From an uncultured Ruminococcus sp. (GTDB lineage Bacteria > Bacillota_A > Clostridia > Oscillospirales > Ruminococcaceae), in the NCBI GenBank assembly GCA_937880065.1, contig CALFMA010000265.1, positions 1-8,378 on the forward strand: a DNA stretch of 8,378 nt, given 5' to 3'. Positions 1 through 8,378 of this stretch are shown in pieces; positions within the stretch are counted from its first letter, which is position 1; the number at the start of each line of letters is the position of its first letter. A program made the position numbers and the translations under genes. A model generated the notes under the pieces. The model made no database searches, was not told where the DNA came from, and saw only the letters and a program-made list of their open reading frames with translations.

Positions 1-762
1 GTAGAAGATTATTTAATGGATAAAGGTGGTTATTGTTATATAAGAAGAAATAGAAATACTGTTACTGGTTTATTTCATGTAAAACCTATATATGTTCAAT
101 TGATACCAAACTTTAAACCAATATTCAAAGATTATCAAATTTTAGTATTAGGAGAAAATTATTATAAACATGAATTTATAAAACTATTAAGAAATACTAA
201 AGATGGTTCTAGTGGTATTGGATTAACTCAAGAAGTTGGAACAATGTTAGAAACTGCATTTGATACATTACTATGTCAATTAAATATGGTCAAAAGTGGT
301 GGTAACAAAAAAGGATTTTTAAAATCTCAAAGAAAATTAGGTCAAGATGAAATAAATGTACTAAAAAGAGCATGGAACAATCTATTTACTAACAATAAAG
401 AAAATGTTGTAGTTTTAAATAATGGTTTAGAGTTCCAAGAAAGTTCTAATAGTGCAGTAGAAATGCAAATGAATGAAAGTAAAAAAACAATTAATGATGA
501 AATTAATGGTTTATTTCATATATATCCAAATGATTTTTATAGAACATTTAAAGAAGCAATATATCCTATACTTGTAGCATTTAGAACTGCTTTAAATAGA
601 GAATTACTTTTAGAAAAAGAAAAAGGTAAACTATTTTTTGATTTTGATGTAAAAGAAATACTAAAAGCAAATCCAAAAGAAAGAGCAGAAACATATAAGT
701 TATATAAAGAAATAGGATTAAAGACTATTAATGAAATGAGAAGAGAAGAAGATATGAATTAC
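1..762 (+). other. HK97-family phage portal protein segment
   Basis: Portal proteins form the dodecameric ring through which DNA enters the phage head. Family-like features seen here are a GGYCYI stretch near the left edge in the place of the usual GNAY-type strand, FIKLLRNTKDGSSG where portals carry the 'H(I/L)R...DG..G' loop, and KSGGNKKGFLK, where family members have a 'ffk.G..p.g.l' segment. These are followed by W120, NVVVLNNGLEF at 130-140, VEMQMNE, and the closing TINEMRREED at 237-246, which matches the 'lT.NE.R..e.lp' motif near the end of the family core. The N-terminal part lies off the window and the short C-terminal tail is missing. Base composition is far more AT-rich than downstream, fitting a phage or a different genome as source. 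A terminase large-subunit gene would normally lie just upstream. Confidence 0.8.
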
Positions 763-2040
763 ATTTCAAATGCAGTTATTACAATTCCTGCTAAATTTGA
801 AGATATTGAGAGAAATGCAATAAAAGCAGCTGCTTTTGATGCAGGTCTTCAAAAAGTCGAACTTATGGCTGAGCCAACAGCAGCTGCTATAGCCTATGTT
901 AATGAAAGGCCAAATATGGAGGGAAAAACTGTCCTTGTTTATGATTTCGGCGGAGGTACATTTGATATATCGGTTTTAAGCAATAAAAATGGTGTGTTTA
1001 AAACTTTGTATACTGATGGCGTGAAAGATCTAGGCGGCAACAATATTACAAATTCTTTAGTTGAAGACATGACTGAGAAAATCAACAGCTATCTAAAAAA
1101 TGTGGAAAAAAATCACTTTTTTGAAGTTGTATGTAATCCTGCAAAATATGATCCTGAACTTGGTATAGACAAAAAATCGTTTCTTATAAATTATATGAAG
1201 ATCTATAGCGAGTGCAATGAAAAGTTAAAGCATAGACTTGCAAGAAACAGAAAAAAATTTGATGGTGAAATTCCGATTATCGTTCAAAATAATGATGACG
1301 GTACAAATAAGGTAGTATATTTTAAATACAGTTACACTCTTGAAGAACTGGAAGACTTGATAAGGTCGAATATTACGACTACCATTGAAATTACAAAAAA
1401 AGCTTTGCTGAAAACAGTATCATCTGAACCGTCAAATCTGAAAAATGTAAAAATAGACAGCATTATCCTTGCAGGCGGAAGTTCCAAATTACCATTGGTG
1501 AAAAAAATGCTTCAGGAATTGATAATACCTGAATATGAAATAAAATTCAATAGTATGCCTATAATATATCAGGATGATGATGTTTCTACGCTTATTTCCC
1601 GTGGTGCCGCTATAATGGCAAATCGCCATTTTCCTAAACCAGAGGTCGAGGAGATATCAAACGTTGAATATGGTGTTGCAAGTCCGATAGGAAATCTGGT
1701 CGATGGTTTCAAGGTGATCATCGAAGATGATCAGAAGATACCATGTGAAGGCGTAGCATCATTTGAAATCAGTGATAATATATCTGATGAGTTTTGTATC
1801 CGCATATATTCAAGGAACGCAAAGGCATGGGATAAAATTAATGCAACGATCACTTCGCTTGCTGTAAATTATATTGATAAACTTATAATCAATAATATTC
1901 CTGATGGAAAAAACAGGATCCTTATGACAAAATTCACCCTAAAAAAGGACGGAACGCTTTTTATAGAAGCTGATATAATGGCAAATGGTAAGGTGATATC
2001 TAAAAATCATGAAATAAAGAAGGGAAGTAACTTGTTATGA
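1..2040 (+). CDS. Chimeric reading frame: phage portal protein fragment joined to 5'-truncated Hsp70 (Hsp70-A)
   Basis: The frame is already open at base 1, so the gene is cut by the left edge; the first ATG, at 16, is unlikely to be the true start. Numbering from that ATG, residues 1-250 resemble the middle and end of an HK97-type phage portal protein. Residues 251-674 are an Hsp70: connect-1 EPTAAAIAY at 286-294, phosphate-2 DFGGGTFD at 310-317, LGGNN at 339-343, adenosine motif AGGSS at 486-490, then a beta-type substrate-binding region from about 550. The Hsp70 start with the GIDLGTT loop and the Lys equivalent to DnaK K70 is absent, so this product should not be a working ATPase. The stop overlaps the next start (ATGA, 2037-2040), which implies translational coupling. 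Each half is recognisable, but whether they form one gene in a real cell is doubtful. Confidence 0.85.
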   Translation, partial: VEDYLMDKGGYCYIRRNRNTVTGLFHVKPIYVQLIPNFKPIFKDYQILVLGENYYKHEFIKLLRNTKDGSSGIGLTQEVGTMLETAFDTLLCQLNMVKSGGNKKGFLKSQRKLGQDEINVLKRAWNNLFTNNKENVVVLNNGLEFQESSNSAVEMQMNESKKTINDEINGLFHIYPNDFYRTFKEAIYPILVAFRTALNRELLLEKEKGKLFFDFDVKEILKANPKERAETYKLYKEIGLKTINEMRREEDMNYISNAVITIPAKFEDIERNAIKAAAFDAGLQKVELMAEPTAAAIAYVNERPNMEGKTVLVYDFGGGTFDISVLSNKNGVFKTLYTDGVKDLGGNNITNSLVEDMTEKINSYLKNVEKNHFFEVVCNPAKYDPELGIDKKSFLINYMKIYSECNEKLKHRLARNRKKFDGEIPIIVQNNDDGTNKVVYFKYSYTLEELEDLIRSNITTTIEITKKALLKTVSSEPSNLKNVKIDSIILAGGSSKLPLVKKMLQELIIPEYEIKFNSMPIIYQDDDVSTLISRGAAIMANRHFPKPEVEEISNVEYGVASPIGNLVDGFKVIIEDDQKIPCEGVASFEISDNISDEFCIRIYSRNAKAWDKINATITSLAVNYIDKLIINNIPDGKNRILMTKFTLKKDGTLFIEADIMANGKVISKNHEIKKGSNLL
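763..2037 (+). other. Hsp70-A: nucleotide-binding domain lacking its N-terminal lobe start, plus beta substrate-binding domain
   Basis: The Hsp70 similarity begins at SNAVITIPAKF (residues 251-261), which aligns with NAVITVPAYF in Hsp70-C at that paralogue's residue 120 or so. About 120 N-terminal residues are therefore missing, including phosphate-1 and the catalytic Lys. The remaining nucleotide-binding motifs (E286, D310-T315, G487-G488) look intact. Residues from about 550 to 674 form a short beta-rich tail similar in size to the Hsp70-B tail, with no alpha-helical lid. The native gene presumably has a normal start that this sequence does not contain. Composition and codon use from about 840 onward match the rest of the operon. 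Confidence 0.8.
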
Positions 2041-2918
2041 TAAATAGTAAAGAAGAAATTATAACTGTGCGGTTTCTTTCTGAATATCTTCATTTTAAAA
2101 TATTTGAAAAGCAGGAATTGAATAGACTGCTCAAAGAAAAATTTTCTCAGGCTTATGATGAGTCGGAAAACGAAACAATAGTCGGAGCCGATCATGAGAT
2201 CACGACAGATATTGATCAGGAGAGGAATCTGATCAGCATGAATCCGCTTCTGAATGATAAAATGAGGGAACAGTTGAATAGAAATCTGGAATTAATAAAA
2301 AAGTTCTATGTTCCCCAAAAATTTAAAGAACCTGTTTTGAAAAATAAAATAGAAAGTATATCTCAATATTTTGATTCTATATTTGAATATGATGAATTCC
2401 AAAAATTAATAGATTATGTAAACAATAATATCAATATAGATTCATTTGAACTATATAAAAAAACAATTTTGGAATTTGAAGAATGTGTAAAAGAGGAAAG
2501 AAATATAATAATATCAAATTCCAAAGCTTCAGAGGTATCAAAGGATGCAGCTGCTAAAATTATGAAGTGTTTCAGTGATACATTTAAGTCAAGCAATATA
2601 TTGGAAGCCCTTTTTTCCAGATTGAGAAACAATGACAAAAATGCCGATATATATGAAAAACTGCTTATGTATCTAAATAAGTTTTTCAGCAGCATAGGTA
2701 TCTACACACCAATGGATGTTGTATTTGGTGATAAATATGATCCTGATGTACAAAAAGATTATAGTGTAGTTTCTGTTCATACTTCAAATACTAAAATGCA
2801 AAGTATGATTATGGAAATTGAAAGATTGCCATATTCAATTGATTATTATTTCAGAAATACAACAAAGACAAGATGCGTTGTTGGAAATATTTCCGTATTA
2901 AGTGCTAATCAGTGTTAA
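2037..2918 (+). CDS. GrpE-like nucleotide exchange factor candidate (293 aa)
   Basis: The start overlaps the Hsp70-A stop by four bases, with a purine-rich AAGGGAAG just upstream. No signal peptide or membrane segment is visible, so it is probably cytosolic. Residues 1-215 are charged and mostly helical. Residues 218-293 form a compact predicted beta region that recalls the GrpE C-terminal beta-domain: IGIYTP, then GDKYDPDV at 231-238 (compare the 'G..FDP..H' of GrpE), an I-EIERLPY strand (compare 'V..V...GY') and a final RCVVGNISVL strand (compare 'R.A.V.V'). The same domain closes the next gene. In GrpE this domain opens the Hsp70 nucleotide cleft to release ADP, and placement between Hsp70 genes supports such a role. 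Similarity is weak and judged by eye; it could instead be an Hsp70-operon adaptor unrelated to GrpE. Confidence 0.55.
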   Translation: MINSKEEIITVRFLSEYLHFKIFEKQELNRLLKEKFSQAYDESENETIVGADHEITTDIDQERNLISMNPLLNDKMREQLNRNLELIKKFYVPQKFKEPVLKNKIESISQYFDSIFEYDEFQKLIDYVNNNINIDSFELYKKTILEFEECVKEERNIIISNSKASEVSKDAAAKIMKCFSDTFKSSNILEALFSRLRNNDKNADIYEKLLMYLNKFFSSIGIYTPMDVVFGDKYDPDVQKDYSVVSVHTSNTKMQSMIMEIERLPYSIDYYFRNTTKTRCVVGNISVLSANQC

Positions 2919-2935
2919 TGGGAGGTAGGTGAATT

Positions 2936-4303
2936 ATGGCAAAAAAAGATAAAGATTTCCTCGAAAAGTTATTAAATGAATTGGATAACAATAAATCCTT
3001 TAGTATTTTAAAGGATGATGATTATAAATTTATAGGCTTATTTATTCGTTATAGAAATAATCAATATAAAAATAAATTTTACGAAAAATTGAATGAAATT
3101 CGCCGTGAATTTAATAATCAGACTAATGAAACTGTAAAGTTTGAACAGATCATCAAATATATGCAAAGTATGATAATTTATGAAAATCAATTGCGTAGAA
3201 TTTTTGAAGTATCATTAAATAACTGTAAGTGCGGAAATGATAATAAAATAAATATTCTGGCAGATATACTTAAGATTTTGAACAAAAGACCAAAAGCTAC
3301 AGAACCTGAAATATACGATTGGGAAAAAGATGAAAAAATGACCGGTTTGTCCAAGCGTGAGTGTAATGCTGATGAACTAACGAATGAATTTAAAAAAATA
3401 ATAAGTCAATATTCATGTTCCAAAGAGCTATTAACGGATATATTTAATATTTTGCTGAAAGAAATGCCCGGCACTGCTAATACGAGTAATACTCCACCAG
3501 CAGCAAGCACCCACACAACTGCAAATCACACTCAGCAAGCACCAACTACTCCAGCAGCAACTAATCCTACAATTGCAAATAACATTCAGGAAAATGAACC
3601 GCCTAAAACAGGATTTTCTGATTCTGTATGGAGGGGTTACGGAAACATAGACAATAATAAGCATCCTGAACCTTTGAAAAATGCTGAGACTGAGAATATG
3701 TTTTCCCTAATGAAAAATAGGGAGCGACGCTTTCCGACAAGTGAAGCGATATTGGCTTTTTTAAAGAATACAAAACAATCTGCTGAAGTATATCAGAGCG
3801 AACCTTTAAGTGCAATAAATTCTCAAGGCAATTCAACATTTCGGATATTGAAAGAAAGAATGTCGGAATTTGTGTATGATATGTACATTCTTATTGAAGA
3901 AAGCAAGCCGTTTCCTTTAGATAATACGCAAATCAACCGTCTCTTTAATCTTGTGAACGAACATATTATTGACGGGATTCTTAAAATAGCTCGTGATCAT
4001 ATTGATAATAATGATGAGAAAGAACTTTATACAAAATTAGTGTCAGAAATAAACGATTATCTTTCAGAAATCGGTATCTTCACCAAGGAACCGCCGCAGA
4101 AAGGCGTGAATTTCTGCAATTTATCTGATGATGATAAAAACTGTTATAAAGTGGAAACTCTTTATACATCTGATGATGATAAAAACGGAATTATTGCTAA
4201 TATAAAACGTCATGTTTATTGCTTTGAATATTTAGACATTAACCATGAACGTGGCTATATATTCTCAAATGGTATAATAGAAATCCTTTCAACCAAATTT
4301 TAG
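2936..4303 (+). CDS. Second GrpE-like protein with helical N-terminus and Pro/Thr/Ala-rich linker (455 aa)
   Basis: The start is set by GGGAGG at 2920-2925, 10 bases before the ATG; the preceding stop is 17 bases upstream. There are three parts. Residues 1-177 are charged, probably helical, and contain a CKCG pair of cysteines. Residues 178-225 are a low-complexity linker rich in Thr, Ala, Pro and Asn, likely disordered. Residues 226-455 are helical and end in a domain (about 375-455) matching the C-terminus of the preceding gene: EIGIFT against SIGIYT, a YTSDDD segment against HTSNTK, an I-x-x-I-x-R-x-x-Y strand in both, and a last strand ending in I-x-x-L. The GrpE-type FDP motif is not kept. 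I infer a partner of one of the Hsp70s, perhaps a nucleotide exchange factor or scaffold; the N-terminal part matches no family I recognise. Confidence 0.5.
   Translation: MAKKDKDFLEKLLNELDNNKSFSILKDDDYKFIGLFIRYRNNQYKNKFYEKLNEIRREFNNQTNETVKFEQIIKYMQSMIIYENQLRRIFEVSLNNCKCGNDNKINILADILKILNKRPKATEPEIYDWEKDEKMTGLSKRECNADELTNEFKKIISQYSCSKELLTDIFNILLKEMPGTANTSNTPPAASTHTTANHTQQAPTTPAATNPTIANNIQENEPPKTGFSDSVWRGYGNIDNNKHPEPLKNAETENMFSLMKNRERRFPTSEAILAFLKNTKQSAEVYQSEPLSAINSQGNSTFRILKERMSEFVYDMYILIEESKPFPLDNTQINRLFNLVNEHIIDGILKIARDHIDNNDEKELYTKLVSEINDYLSEIGIFTKEPPQKGVNFCNLSDDDKNCYKVETLYTSDDDKNGIIANIKRHVYCFEYLDINHERGYIFSNGIIEILSTKF
4123..4186 (+). repeat. Pair of 19-base direct repeats, in frame, 45 bases apart
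   Basis: The identical 19 bases ATCTGATGATGATAAAAAC occur at 4123-4141 and 4168-4186. Both encode SDDDKN in the GrpE-like C-terminal domain of the 455-aa protein, 15 residues apart. The spacing keeps frame, so a small internal duplication is possible, but the sequence is low-complexity and chance is not excluded. Confidence 0.7.
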
Positions 4304-4307
4304 GAGG
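4302..4307 (+). promoter_or_regulatory. Shine-Dalgarno AGGAGG overlapping the upstream stop codon
   Basis: AGGAGG shares two bases with the TAG stop (4301-4303) of the 455-aa gene and lies four bases before the ATG of Hsp70-B. A terminating ribosome would sit on the initiation site, so the two genes are probably translated in coupled fashion. Confidence 0.75.
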
Positions 4308-4311
4308 AATT

Positions 4312-5934
4312 ATGGAAATTGAGCAAAAAATCGCTGTAAGTATTGACTTAGGATCCTCTAATATTAAAGCAGCTGTATATGATAGTACACGAGCAAATTC
4401 CAAAATAAGAATGCTTACTCTGTCTGATAATCAGTATTATGACCATATTCCAAGTATCATATATATCGGTGAAAAAAGTTTTGAGATAGGTGATTTTGGC
4501 GATCCCGTAAATCAGACTATGATAAGAGGATTCAAACGCCATATCGAAGAAGAAAACTGGAATATATTTATTCCTCACAGAAAAAGATTTATGGATGTAG
4601 ACGAAATACTTCTGAATGAATTTGAATGGATAAAAAAACGAATCGCAGAAGGATGTCCTTGTGAACCATCAGATGTGATAATAACTGTTCCTGTTGGTTT
4701 TTCGGAAATGCAGAAATACAGGATGAAAAAGGCCGGAGAAACAGCCGGTCTGAAAATAAGAGAGATCATTACCGAGCCGTTTGCAGGTATGTTTTTTAAC
4801 TTGAAAATGCTTCAGGAGGATAAGGATGATGATTATAACATTCTTGTCTTTGATTTCGGTGGCGGTACTCTTGATATGAGTCTGTTCAACATCAATAAGA
4901 AGGAAAAATTAAAGATATCTGCTCATGCTGCAATGGGTATAAAATTCGGTGGTGAGGATCTTACAGAAATTATTCTTGAAAAGAAAATAATCAATGATTA
5001 CAGCAATCTGATCGAAGATTGCGTAAATGATGATTTTAAAAGAAATTTTCTCGACAGTGAATTTATCTCTGATGAGGACAAGTCACCAAATTCAGATGCT
5101 TATAAGAAATACTATGCTAAATGTGCTTCAGTGGTGAAAACAAAGCTTTTGAATGAAGTTGAAAAGCTGAAATCAGATGTCTGCACACCCGTACATATGA
5201 AATCAGAACCTGATGAGGAAGAAATATTTTGCTCATCAACTGTCCTGAATCTTAATGATAAGAATATCTCTCTTTCATACAATGAGTTTGTAGAATTTAT
5301 TAAATCTACAGATATAAGAGAAAAGATAGAAAAGGGCATTGAACTTATGTGTGACCATGCAATGCTTGACGTTACAGATATTACAAAAGTTATGGTCATT
5401 GGCGGAACATCTAAAATAGCCTATTTCCGAAATCTTCTCAAAGAAATACTTCAGATCTCTGATGAGGCGGAGAACAAAGCTTTTATTGAAGTAAAGGACA
5501 GAGATAAATTCAATGCAGTAGCATTGGGTGCATTGTCGTATTTTGAATATAACAATGTTGAATTTGAAGCAAAAAATATACTTGCATATGAAATAGGAAC
5601 GATACAGGATGGTGAATATATCAGGCTAAGGACAGATATGACAACGCTTGGTACAACATCACTCATGGTTGGTATAAAACCGACGCTTGATGGTGATGGT
5701 ATATATAAGGCTAAAATGTATCAGATCTTTCCGGGTATCGATGGTGTTCTCACACCTGAAGAAAAGATAAAAAATGGCATCTATATGGGCTATTTCAGTA
5801 TCAGTAAGGATCTGATGCCTGAGAATGGTAGATGTCTTATTGATCTTTGTGCAGACAATAAATGCGAACTTTACGCAAATATTTATAATAATAGCGGTGA
5901 GCGGATACTTGAAAATATTCAGCTGACACATTAG
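4312..5934 (+). CDS. Hsp70-B: lidless DnaK-like ATPase (540 aa)
   Basis: This is a complete Hsp70/actin-fold ATPase, expected to be cytosolic and to cycle between ATP and ADP states. Phosphate-1 is SIDLGSSN (residues 10-17), where DnaK has IDLGTTN, so both threonines are serines. K75 sits at the place of catalytic K70 of DnaK. Connect-1 is EPFAG at 155-159 instead of EPTAA. Phosphate-2 DFGGGTLD is at 181-188, FGGEDL at 212-217, and the adenosine motif IGGTSK ends at 368. A beta substrate-binding-like tail runs from about 425 to 540 and the protein then stops, about 100 residues short of DnaK (638 in E. coli), so the helical lid is missing. ATP hydrolysis looks possible, but client capture must differ from DnaK. 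It directly follows the two GrpE-like genes and precedes two coiled-coil genes. The fold is certain; the function is open. Confidence 0.9.
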   Translation: MEIEQKIAVSIDLGSSNIKAAVYDSTRANSKIRMLTLSDNQYYDHIPSIIYIGEKSFEIGDFGDPVNQTMIRGFKRHIEEENWNIFIPHRKRFMDVDEILLNEFEWIKKRIAEGCPCEPSDVIITVPVGFSEMQKYRMKKAGETAGLKIREIITEPFAGMFFNLKMLQEDKDDDYNILVFDFGGGTLDMSLFNINKKEKLKISAHAAMGIKFGGEDLTEIILEKKIINDYSNLIEDCVNDDFKRNFLDSEFISDEDKSPNSDAYKKYYAKCASVVKTKLLNEVEKLKSDVCTPVHMKSEPDEEEIFCSSTVLNLNDKNISLSYNEFVEFIKSTDIREKIEKGIELMCDHAMLDVTDITKVMVIGGTSKIAYFRNLLKEILQISDEAENKAFIEVKDRDKFNAVALGALSYFEYNNVEFEAKNILAYEIGTIQDGEYIRLRTDMTTLGTTSLMVGIKPTLDGDGIYKAKMYQIFPGIDGVLTPEEKIKNGIYMGYFSISKDLMPENGRCLIDLCADNKCELYANIYNNSGERILENIQLTH

Positions 5935-5938
5935 GAGG
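5933..5938 (+). promoter_or_regulatory. Shine-Dalgarno AGGAGG overlapping the Hsp70-B stop codon
   Basis: AGGAGG shares two bases with the TAG stop of Hsp70-B (5932-5934) and lies nine bases before the ATG of the 63-aa gene. This strong, well-spaced site is the main reason to accept that very short gene as real. Confidence 0.8.
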
Positions 5939-5947
5939 AAATAAGCT

Positions 5948-6139
5948 ATGAGCGAAAAATTAGAAAAACTTCGCCGTGAGTACAATGAGTATATGACCTA
6001 TGCAGGACTTCTTATAGATAAATGTCAGGAAGATAATGATAGGGCAAGGAAAGAATATGAAACTGCAATGAAGATCAGGGAGCGGAGCAAACAATTTGTG
6101 GATGAAATATTTAGTATAGGAGAATCTGATAATGGATAA
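5948..6139 (+). CDS. Small helical, probably coiled-coil protein (63 aa)
   Basis: I recognise no family. The product is highly charged, rich in Glu, Lys and Arg, and free of proline. Residues 1-55 can be read as one or two amphipathic helices with heptad-like hydrophobic spacing; the only glycines are A-G-L near 20 and two close to the end. There is no signal peptide or membrane segment. Support for a real gene comes from an ideal AGGAGG nine bases upstream, tight placement 13 bases after Hsp70-B, and an 8-base overlap with the next gene. It may pair with the 306-aa coiled-coil protein or act as a small adaptor for Hsp70-B or Hsp70-C; this is inference from position only. Confidence 0.75.
   Translation: MSEKLEKLRREYNEYMTYAGLLIDKCQEDNDRARKEYETAMKIRERSKQFVDEIFSIGESDNG
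6118..6123 (+). promoter_or_regulatory. Ribosome binding site inside the 63-aa gene for the coiled-coil gene
   Basis: AGGAGA lies eight bases before the ATG at 6132 and within the end of the upstream coding sequence. It supports that ATG as the start of the coiled-coil gene and makes coupled translation of the pair likely. Confidence 0.65.
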
Positions 6140-7052
6140 TAATCTGGAATTGTTAAAAAATACGATCATACAGATGAATGCTATCAACGAAAAACTATGT
6201 GGTATGGTGAACGAATTGGAAACTTCAAATTCTGACCTTGAACGTGAAAATGCAGAACTTGAACAATTCCGCAATGATATGACGGGGAAGATAGCATCGC
6301 TTGATAATATTTATAACGAACACATGGCTGCAAAGCAGAAACTTGAAGATGACACAGCTACACTCGAAAGAGAAAAAGCAGTTGTTGATGAAGAACGTAA
6401 AAAACAGATTGAGAAAGAGAATAAAATAAAGGAACTCAATGAAAAAATAAAAAATAATACAACAACAATTAACAGTTTGAACGACAAGATCGAAAAAATG
6501 GAACAAGAGAATGCAAAAGCAATCGCTGACGTTGAAAGCAAAAAAACAGTTGCTGAAACAAAATTAAAAACAAAAGAAAATGAATTAGAAAATGCCAATG
6601 CTTTATTAAACAAAATAAAAGATAAACGCACAAAAGCAGAGAACGATCTTAAAGAAGCTAAACAAGAACTTGAGAAAGCTCAAAAAGAACTTAAAGCTGA
6701 AAAAGAAGATAATGTTAATTTGATTCAAATGTACGAAAAGCTTAATGAGAAGCTGAAAAATCAGAACAATCCATTAAATGATGATGACATACAGAAAATC
6801 ACTAAGGAAACATTGGAGGAAATCGAAAAAGAAATTAATGAATTAAAGAAAAGATTAGAAAATCAAGGAGACGAGTTAAAAAAACAAAGAGATTTACTGG
6901 GAAAACAAAAAGTTGTTCTGGAAAAACACAATCTTATGTCTGAAGTTGATGAGGTTGTTTTATCAAAACCTAATGAGTCATCTGCCGTTCAGGACGAAAA
7001 TTCTGATAAATCAATTAATGATGCACCTAAAGAGGAAAATTATGATCAATAA
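6132..7052 (+). CDS. Long coiled-coil protein (306 aa)
   Basis: The sequence is dominated by Glu, Lys, Asn, Gln and Leu. From about residue 10 to 275 it shows nearly unbroken heptad-like spacing of Leu, Ile, Val and Ala, with only one proline (in NNPLNDDD, near residue 217). This predicts a long parallel or antiparallel coiled coil with a break near that point. Residues from about 276 to 306 are acidic and likely disordered. No catalytic motif, signal peptide or membrane helix is seen. The start overlaps the 63-aa gene by eight bases. Database searches would hit myosin- or SMC-like proteins through composition alone, so such names should not be trusted. In this operon it could be a scaffold, the client, or a filament on which the Hsp70s act; none of these is shown. 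Confidence 0.85.
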   Translation: MDNNLELLKNTIIQMNAINEKLCGMVNELETSNSDLERENAELEQFRNDMTGKIASLDNIYNEHMAAKQKLEDDTATLEREKAVVDEERKKQIEKENKIKELNEKIKNNTTTINSLNDKIEKMEQENAKAIADVESKKTVAETKLKTKENELENANALLNKIKDKRTKAENDLKEAKQELEKAQKELKAEKEDNVNLIQMYEKLNEKLKNQNNPLNDDDIQKITKETLEEIEKEINELKKRLENQGDELKKQRDLLGKQKVVLEKHNLMSEVDEVVLSKPNESSAVQDENSDKSINDAPKEENYDQ

Positions 7053-7075
7053 ATTTATAATTGGAGGAATTAATT

Positions 7076-8378
7076 ATGAGTATTAACATTGGAATTGATC
7101 TCGGAACAACAAATACGGTCGTATGTTACTATGATGAACAGGATTATGTTTTCCTTGAGTTCGGCAACTATGATCTTCTGCCATCTGCTGTATATATTGC
7201 TGAAGGCAATAAGATCTATGTTGGTTCAAAAGCTTTAAATATGGGAAATACAGATCCTACACGCCTTATTCGTTCTTCCAAGATCCACATGGGTGACAAT
7301 GGTTTCGTTTACCCCGATTCACAGGCAGGACTTAAATTCGAAAAAAAACTCACTCCTACTGATGTAGCTTGTCTTATCCTTAAAGAGGTAAAGAAAACTC
7401 TTATTATAGAAGAGATATGCAGTGAAGGCGATACGATAAATGCCGTTATCACTGTTCCTGCATACTTCAGCACCAAACAGATAGAGGAAACTACAAGAGC
7501 AGCTAAGGATGCAGGATTAAATGTTAAATCTATTCTTGCAGAGCCTACTGCAGCATCTATCGCTTACATAAATGATCTCATCAAAAAGAATACCCAGATT
7601 TTTGTTGTGGATTTCGGCGGCGGTACTCTTGATCTCACACTTCTTATATATGATGAAAACAATGAGAATAAATATGTACCTCTCGCTATCCACGGAGATA
7701 ACCACCTGGGTGGTGATGATATCGACGAATGTGTAGCTAACTGGATATATGATAATATTAAAAAGGATGTCAACATTGATCTGCGTGATTATAAATCTCT
7801 GAATATAAATAAAACAGACTATTTAGGCATCACAATGAAGATCCTTAATGCAGCTGAAGTAGCAAAGCGTAAGCTCAGCTTTGCTGATTCATATTCTGTA
7901 AAAATCGCAAATCTGTTTATGTTCCCCGGCAAAGAAGTATACGATTTTGAAAAAAGGATCACAGTTGATGAATTCAATAAATACTGTGATCCTGTTTATA
8001 AAAAATTCAAGAACACCATCGCTCAACTTTTTTCTGAAGGAAGAATCGGCAATAGCGGCAAGAGGATAGATGTTTCAGCAATTGACAGAGTTCTTCTTGT
8101 TGGCGGAAGCTGTAATATCCCATACATAAAGCGTATAGTTGAAGAAATGCTTAACAAAAAGACAACCCCCGATGATCTTTCAAATATTGTAGCAAAGGGT
8201 GCCTGCATCAGCTGTATGAATGCAATGAAGGGCGAAAAACAAGTTCAGATGATAGCATATGATCTCGGTATTGAGATCGCTAAGAAAGATAATATCTATG
8301 AAACAGAGTTTGATCCTATCATAAAAAGACAATCTCTTACACCATGTTCAATTACCAAATCAAACTACACTACTATTG
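7076..8378 (+). CDS. Hsp70-C: DnaK-like ATPase, cut by the right edge (first 434 residues)
   Basis: The ATG at 7076 follows GGAGG (7063-7067) by eight bases and gives the classic Hsp70 beginning MSINIGIDLGTTN; no stop occurs before the window ends. Of the three paralogues it keeps the most canonical nucleotide-binding domain: phosphate-1 GIDLGTTN at 6-13, catalytic Lys K69 (DnaK K70), NAVITVPAYF near 120, EPTAAS at 156-161, DFGGGTLD at 179-186, LGGDDI at 211-216, and adenosine motif VGGS ending at 345. The substrate-binding domain begins near YDLGIEI, around residue 395, and continues as in DnaK (PIIKRQSLTPC resembles the 'PLI.RN..iP' strand). It should bind and hydrolyse ATP. Whether it carries a lid cannot be seen. 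It is the last visible gene; the operon may continue to the right. Confidence 0.92.
   Translation, partial: MSINIGIDLGTTNTVVCYYDEQDYVFLEFGNYDLLPSAVYIAEGNKIYVGSKALNMGNTDPTRLIRSSKIHMGDNGFVYPDSQAGLKFEKKLTPTDVACLILKEVKKTLIIEEICSEGDTINAVITVPAYFSTKQIEETTRAAKDAGLNVKSILAEPTAASIAYINDLIKKNTQIFVVDFGGGTLDLTLLIYDENNENKYVPLAIHGDNHLGGDDIDECVANWIYDNIKKDVNIDLRDYKSLNINKTDYLGITMKILNAAEVAKRKLSFADSYSVKIANLFMFPGKEVYDFEKRITVDEFNKYCDPVYKKFKNTIAQLFSEGRIGNSGKRIDVSAIDRVLLVGGSCNIPYIKRIVEEMLNKKTTPDDLSNIVAKGACISCMNAMKGEKQVQMIAYDLGIEIAKKDNIYETEFDPIIKRQSLTPCSITKSNYTTI

Follow-up and report, generated by a model that had tools for sequence, protein, structure and literature searches.

The window analysed here is an 8,378-nt stretch from an uncultured Ruminococcus sp. 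(assembly GCA_937880065.1, contig CALFMA010000265.1, positions 1-8,378 of the forward strand). It harbors a run of genes, three of them for Hsp70-family proteins, which, by synteny with related loci, very probably belongs to a Bacillota contractile injection system (CIS). Seven genes lie in one direction from left to right, in the order of Hsp70-1 (truncated), a 293-aa protein, a 455-aa protein, Hsp70-2, a 63-aa helical protein, a 306-aa helical protein, and Hsp70-3 (Table 1). The gaps between neighbours range from -8 to +23 bases, and a GGAGG/AGGAG-type site precedes five of the six internal starts. A first-pass annotation, made from the letters alone, had described a tightly coupled, co-directional run of three non-identical Hsp70s together with two helical or coiled-coil proteins and the 293-/455-aa pair. 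This description holds, and all three Hsp70s are real by their Pfam HSP70 matches, although Hsp70-1 lacks its N-terminus and Hsp70-3 is incomplete at the window end. Comparison of the window with plasmids and phages by megablast returned 0 matches, and PADLOC gave weak matches only: for the Hsp70s to PDC-M61B, and for the 306-aa protein to coiled-coil proteins from systems such as JetC and LmuB.

Table 1. Coordinates of the features in the window, with the module genes first and the left end last.
Feature	Position	Strand	Evidence
Hsp70-1, N-terminal ~126 residues missing	757..2040	+	Pfam HSP70 1e-40; 37% to L007 Hsp70-1, E 1e-76
293-aa module protein	2037..2918	+	29% to L007 288-aa protein, E 1e-15
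455-aa module protein	2936..4303	+	C-terminal part matches its counterparts in L001/L007, E 1.5e-10 and 6e-10
Hsp70-2, 540 aa, complete, most divergent	4312..5934	+	Pfam HSP70 1.7e-20; 36% to L007
63-aa helical protein	5948..6139	+	Counterpart in relatives by position and size only
306-aa coiled-coil protein	6132..7052	+	Weakly similar to the 396-aa protein of L001, E 0.011; same place in relatives
Hsp70-3, cut by window end	7076..8378	+	Pfam HSP70 2.2e-54; 44% to L001/L007
Phage portal protein, C-terminal part; outside the system	1..753	+	PF04860 1.4e-27; phrog_12 portal 6.9e-30; 90% to L099
Probable chimeric assembly join	748..765	.	L099 similarity stops; Hsp70-1 alignment starts at ortholog residue 129

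The ATP-site motifs are retained in Hsp70-1, Hsp70-2 and Hsp70-3, and the ATP-site residues of Hsp70-2 are invariant across 10 aligned sequences. The DnaK-type LLLDV linker is not retained in any of the three, in keeping with the lack of an HPD protein. No HPD motif was present in the seven window proteins or in the checked cluster open reading frames (ORFs) of L001-L005, L007 and G681, in agreement with the earlier statement that the module has no J-domain protein. A C-terminal vWA domain carrying a DxSxS motif was found in all five complete Hsp70-3 orthologs scanned. The two partners that had been called GrpE-like did not keep that identity, which was dropped after negative tests with both hhalign and Pfam: the 293- and 455-aa families reached hhalign probabilities of only 0.03-0.2% against 11 GrpE sequences, and across the 10 genomes searched the Pfam GrpE model matched nothing in these clusters. 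The two families share a common C-terminal domain (hhalign probability 98, E 7e-14). Separately, two Selenomonadaceae genomes contain another cluster with an Hsp70-like gene (L097 11664-17715; L098 8540-15232), where the end of one protein passes the Pfam GrpE cut-off and PP2C, vWA and kinase genes are apparent by eye; it is reminiscent of TerY-P-type cassettes.

Among 7,996 candidates from the protein collection, Hsp70-2 has at least 14 other relatives with E <= 1e-10, nine of which were aligned with Hsp70-2, and a scan of genome contigs with this alignment yielded at least 11 loci. Among the matches listed, six loci carry true counterparts, namely L001 and L007 from Ruminococcus, L002, L003 and L005 from Selenomonadaceae, and L004 from Oscillibacter; L006, L010 and L011 were set aside as ordinary-looking DnaK genes, and L008 and L009 because they match distantly and only in part. 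The 293-aa protein matched nothing but itself in the protein collection. In the viral contigs, the single Hsp70-2 sequence found no relative, while its alignment found 27 loci whose best-matching segments are 22-49% identical. Hsp70-1, the 293- and 455-aa proteins, Hsp70-2 and Hsp70-3 pair one to one, and in the same order, with the genes of L007/L001.

Comparison of the neighbourhoods of these relatives revealed that the module sits inside a CIS locus, in which the genes for sheath, a putative tube protein and VgrG with two conserved genes lie on one side of it and the gene for a large ASKHA ATPase on the other. CIS genes adjoin in all seven loci with the module or its parts (five complete, two on broken contigs), on the same contig in each case except L001, where the connection is made by matching contig ends of the same genome. 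Two pairs of relatives from the protein collection also suggest linkage, as the Hsp70-2 relative P0003 and the sheath relative P0030 are both on 37,112-base contigs, and P0009 and P0020, in the same respective roles, on 60,747-base contigs. Another sheath homolog, P0033, carries the name of Ruminococcus flavefaciens. A chaperone cluster for general stress or folding, which the CIS genes adjoin by coincidence, might be proposed in view of how common Hsp70s are and of the window itself containing no CIS gene, but the seven-of-seven adjacency argues against it, even with a search for modules without CIS that was not exhaustive. Ordinary GrpE and DnaJ matches, moreover, occur in all 10 genomes searched, and in G001-G006 these genes are located away from the cluster (G681 was outside that search), so that such a coincidence is very improbable. 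The suggestion of the first-pass annotation that the run encodes a dedicated ATP-driven assembly machine thus pointed in the right direction, with the module inside a CIS locus in relatives, while its GrpE part is not supported and the left boundary of the run is a probable chimeric join. As a separate observation, a transposase-like gene, IS30-like by eye, lies on the opposite strand between two 293/455-type module genes of G681 (L148 9578-10411), and a second ORF with the same starting residues occurs further upstream.

The contractile sheath of the relatives' loci is a single chain of ~740 aa, recognized by an AlphaFold2 (AF2) model whose highest structural matches in VIA-align were phage A-1(L) (20.7), PVC (20.0), Streptomyces CIS (19.1) and Afp (19.0); the assignment came from VIA-align 2 alone, which leaves families outside its listing not excluded. 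An AF2 run on four sheath sequences was discarded for its low predicted local distance difference test score (pLDDT 39.6). The best PDB profile match of the candidate tube protein is Hcp1, a weak one (E 0.0047), and a spike of the VgrG/gpD-gpV type was found in the same loci; L043 holds, at 485-9363, a further VgrG with 430-, 230- and 260-aa genes. In the large ASKHA protein, the phosphate- and adenosine-site motifs are present in all 18 sequences scanned; two more of the 20 are incomplete and were left out. Its profile likeness to SrfB (PF07520) is weak (2.3e-4 in L002, 0.0064 in L003, both below the Pfam cut-off), and no such match was reported for L007 or L005. Of the ORFs listed at the loci, the Pfam and NCBIfam scans covered 65 of 77 and 57 of 70, respectively for the two sets of proteins, and one family scan gave 25 of 36 families. 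No AAA+ family, including the ClpV and Afp15 kind, was detected among these 65 and 57 proteins at E <= 1e-5. Within the core spans, just two ORFs contain a P-loop pattern, one of 272 aa in L002 (the ~270-aa family) and one of 163 aa in L095 (J-domain), and both are read as chance matches; the ATPases recognized in the core have the Hsp70 fold.

These scans also bear on a GAP1-N2 GTPase conflict system with an HSP70/GrpE theme, which, as outlined by Kaur et al. 2020 (PMC7159879), combines in Firmicutes an HSP70, a GrpE and sometimes a second HSP70 without the peptide-binding domain. No GTPase, FNIII, DnaJ or GrpE family was found in the 65 locus proteins at E <= 1e-5, with no GAP1-specific model used, and together with the negative GrpE test this largely refutes the proposal, leaving it scarcely credible. 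CoCoNuTs (PMC11090510) were likewise among the candidates tried and set aside.

Just upstream of the sheath gene, L003 (via L043) encodes a protein with DUF4280 (PAAR-like, 8.5e-5) and AHH nuclease (1e-6) matches, followed by Imm11 (2.8e-13). The same pair is found more weakly in L007 (via L039; DUF4280 2.9e-4, AHH 0.0017, Imm11 8.9e-8), and an effector/immunity pair is also present in G681 and G550 by our own profiles. From their position, the effector and immunity genes would belong together, and such a pair argues for antibacterial use. Effectors and a J-domain gene just outside the run had been named in advance as grounds for changing the reading; effector and immunity genes do lie close by in some relatives, and the module has no J-domain gene. 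Upstream of the DUF4280 gene lies a ~1000-aa protein (L043 14382-17480; L045 2290-5490; L158 1-2580; L148/L149, a G681 ORF of 1010 aa), with an Hsp70 profile match in G550 (5e-9) and G681 and no Pfam match in L043, which may be an additional Hsp70-fold component of the system. A few kb upstream of the Ruminococcus CIS loci, small WXG100/LXG-like genes were noticed by eye (L050 285-5392; L039 4941-5961), reminiscent of type VII secretion substrates.

Rather than belonging to a universally conserved core genome, as would have undermined the earlier interpretation, the system is sporadic: in the Ruminococcus family 5 of 297 genomes carry a sheath homolog, and in the phylum 13 of 398, with the centre genome counted in both. 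Annotation of 22 loci with our own profiles placed the large ASKHA gene in 20, the loci without it (G683 and G614) both being cut by contig ends. The full three-Hsp70 module is present in five loci (L007, L003, L002, L005 and G681) and parts of it in two with broken or badly called contigs (L001 and L004), while 13 loci carry J-domain, FHA and/or PP2C genes (J-domain in 11, FHA and/or PP2C in 12); G683 was not placed in either branch. In the midpoint-rooted sheath (21 tips) and ASKHA (19 tips) trees, the module-bearing loci and G550 form one group with a support of 1.0, which the BP230 tree (17 tips) does not recover. As G550 is nested in this group, adjoining G681, it has probably lost the module, judging from the trees. 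In addition to a locus of the Hsp70 kind, G003 and G002 contain another CIS locus with the J-domain/FHA/PP2C type of gene set (L047 and L048).

Taken with the synteny, these results lead us to favour, with moderate confidence, the reading that the window carries the chaperone module of a Bacillota CIS whose Hsp70-family ATPases perform ClpV-like work; of its two parts, the ClpV-like energetic role is the tentative one, to which we give somewhat less than an even chance. The machine would fire a VgrG/PAAR spike and its effector into competing bacteria. The core ATPase of the machine would be the large ASKHA protein; the three Hsp70s, together with the partner proteins and the coiled-coil proteins, would form a lineage-specific layer. 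The Hsp70-family ATPases may handle the parts of the machine, by holding sheath subunits unassembled, aiding assembly or dismantling the contracted sheath, and the vWA tail of Hsp70-3 may act as a protein-binding adaptor. An action of the Hsp70 cycle on the machine is suggested mainly by gene content, since each branch has an added chaperone component of its own: dedicated Hsp70s in the window's branch, a J-domain protein in the sister branch.

Several observations weigh against this reading. The window's own membership is drawn from synteny, no CIS gene lying within it, and the upstream stretch fetched for L005 contains no effector gene. The sheath profiles show no sheath family in PDB or, with 27 members, in Pfam, and Foldseek alone gave no match at E <= 0.001 in PDB or the viral library. 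The 430-, 230- and 270-aa families have no significant match among solved structures, including as TssE/F/G/K baseplate candidates. Longest-frame ORF calling misses genes in GC-rich loci (G640 and L004), and the absence of an ATPase there is therefore weak evidence. G550 possesses the core alone, its CIS locus lacking the three-Hsp70 module, and elsewhere in its genome no close Hsp70-2 or Hsp70-3 counterpart occurs, the nearest matches being a DnaK-like frame of 618 aa and others that are weaker; the module is therefore dispensable at least there.

Because G550 manages without the module, an alternative stands in which the three Hsp70s are chiefly regulatory or sensing, controlling the trigger, localisation or effector gating in place of the FHA/PP2C layer of the sister branch, with sheath turnover not powered by them. 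It accords with the mutual substitution of the module and the FHA/PP2C genes between the branches, with the retention of the large ASKHA gene in G550, with the vWA domain on Hsp70-3 and with the lost linker. Against it, the sister branch has a chaperone component too, namely a J-domain gene next to those for FHA/PP2C, and the ATP sites are kept; we consider this regulatory role rather unlikely, if far from negligible.

At the left end, the window begins with a portal fragment joined in frame to Hsp70-1. This fragment is 90% identical to the viral contig L099 (IMG/VR) over 251 residues, and its phage group counts 29 relatives among the viral contigs scanned (L099-L127; 61-90% identical). Since L099 goes on quite differently from the window beyond this point and Hsp70-1 is alignable to its ortholog from residue 129 onward only, the boundary is most simply read as a probable chimeric assembly join, a real fusion being the alternative. 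The content of guanine and cytosine (GC) is 0.23-0.26 before the join and 0.36 directly after; it is no marker of the join because 0.23 recurs within the cluster.

The type VI secretion system (T6SS) relies on the AAA+ protein ClpV to recycle its sheath after contraction. Compared with the TssB plus TssC sheath of the T6SS, the present loci encode one ~740-aa chain, and the TssC model PF05943 had no match in G003, the one genome searched. ClpV and TssJ-TssL-TssM are likewise T6SS parts, and neither family was found among the 65 and 57 locus proteins, to which that search was confined. Unlike the T6SS, the present system has an Hsp70-fold ATPase in its core and Bacillota as hosts, Gram-positive Ruminococcus included. 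Extracellular CIS (eCIS) and phage-tail-like particles (Afp, PVC, Streptomyces CIS, R-type bacteriocins) supply the top structural matches of the sheath; eCIS loci carry an AAA+ ATPase and a typical eCIS tip, in contrast with the Hsp70-fold ATPase and DUF4280 found here. With the DnaK-GrpE-DnaJ machinery, the module shares the Hsp70 fold and the ATP-site motifs, and differs in its three paralogs, its lack of GrpE (by test), J-domain and LLLDV linker, and the vWA tail of Hsp70-3; SrfB resembles the large ASKHA protein weakly, in L002 and L003 only. As a speculative generalisation, with low confidence, we propose a class of Bacillota CIS in which Hsp70-superfamily ATPases (the large ASKHA protein plus a three-Hsp70 or J-domain module) would replace the AAA+ unfoldase in the energy-dependent step, and in which the Hsp70s of the window's branch might dismantle or pre-fold the sheath, by analogy with the uncoating of clathrin by Hsc70.

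An "unknown phage-like translocation system" of Gram-positive Firmicutes was speculated upon in a 2021 survey of PAAR proteins (PMC8651086). The shared features are a Phage_GPD-type VgrG adjoining DUF4280 (PAAR_H2), in Firmicutes, with no recognisable T6SS or eCIS genes around; the survey named no sheath, tube, ATPase or Hsp70. The present loci fit this description, the likeness being to its wording and not to its accessions. In the open PubMed Central literature, judged by titles and abstract openings, with preprints and most subscription papers outside the scope, no description of such a system was found. The loci would supply a testable parts list for the speculated system, comprising sheath, putative tube, spike, effector with immunity, and ATPase. 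If Hsp70-family proteins do run a contractile machine, this would constitute a second energetic solution beside ClpV, and the known range of Hsp70 work would widen.

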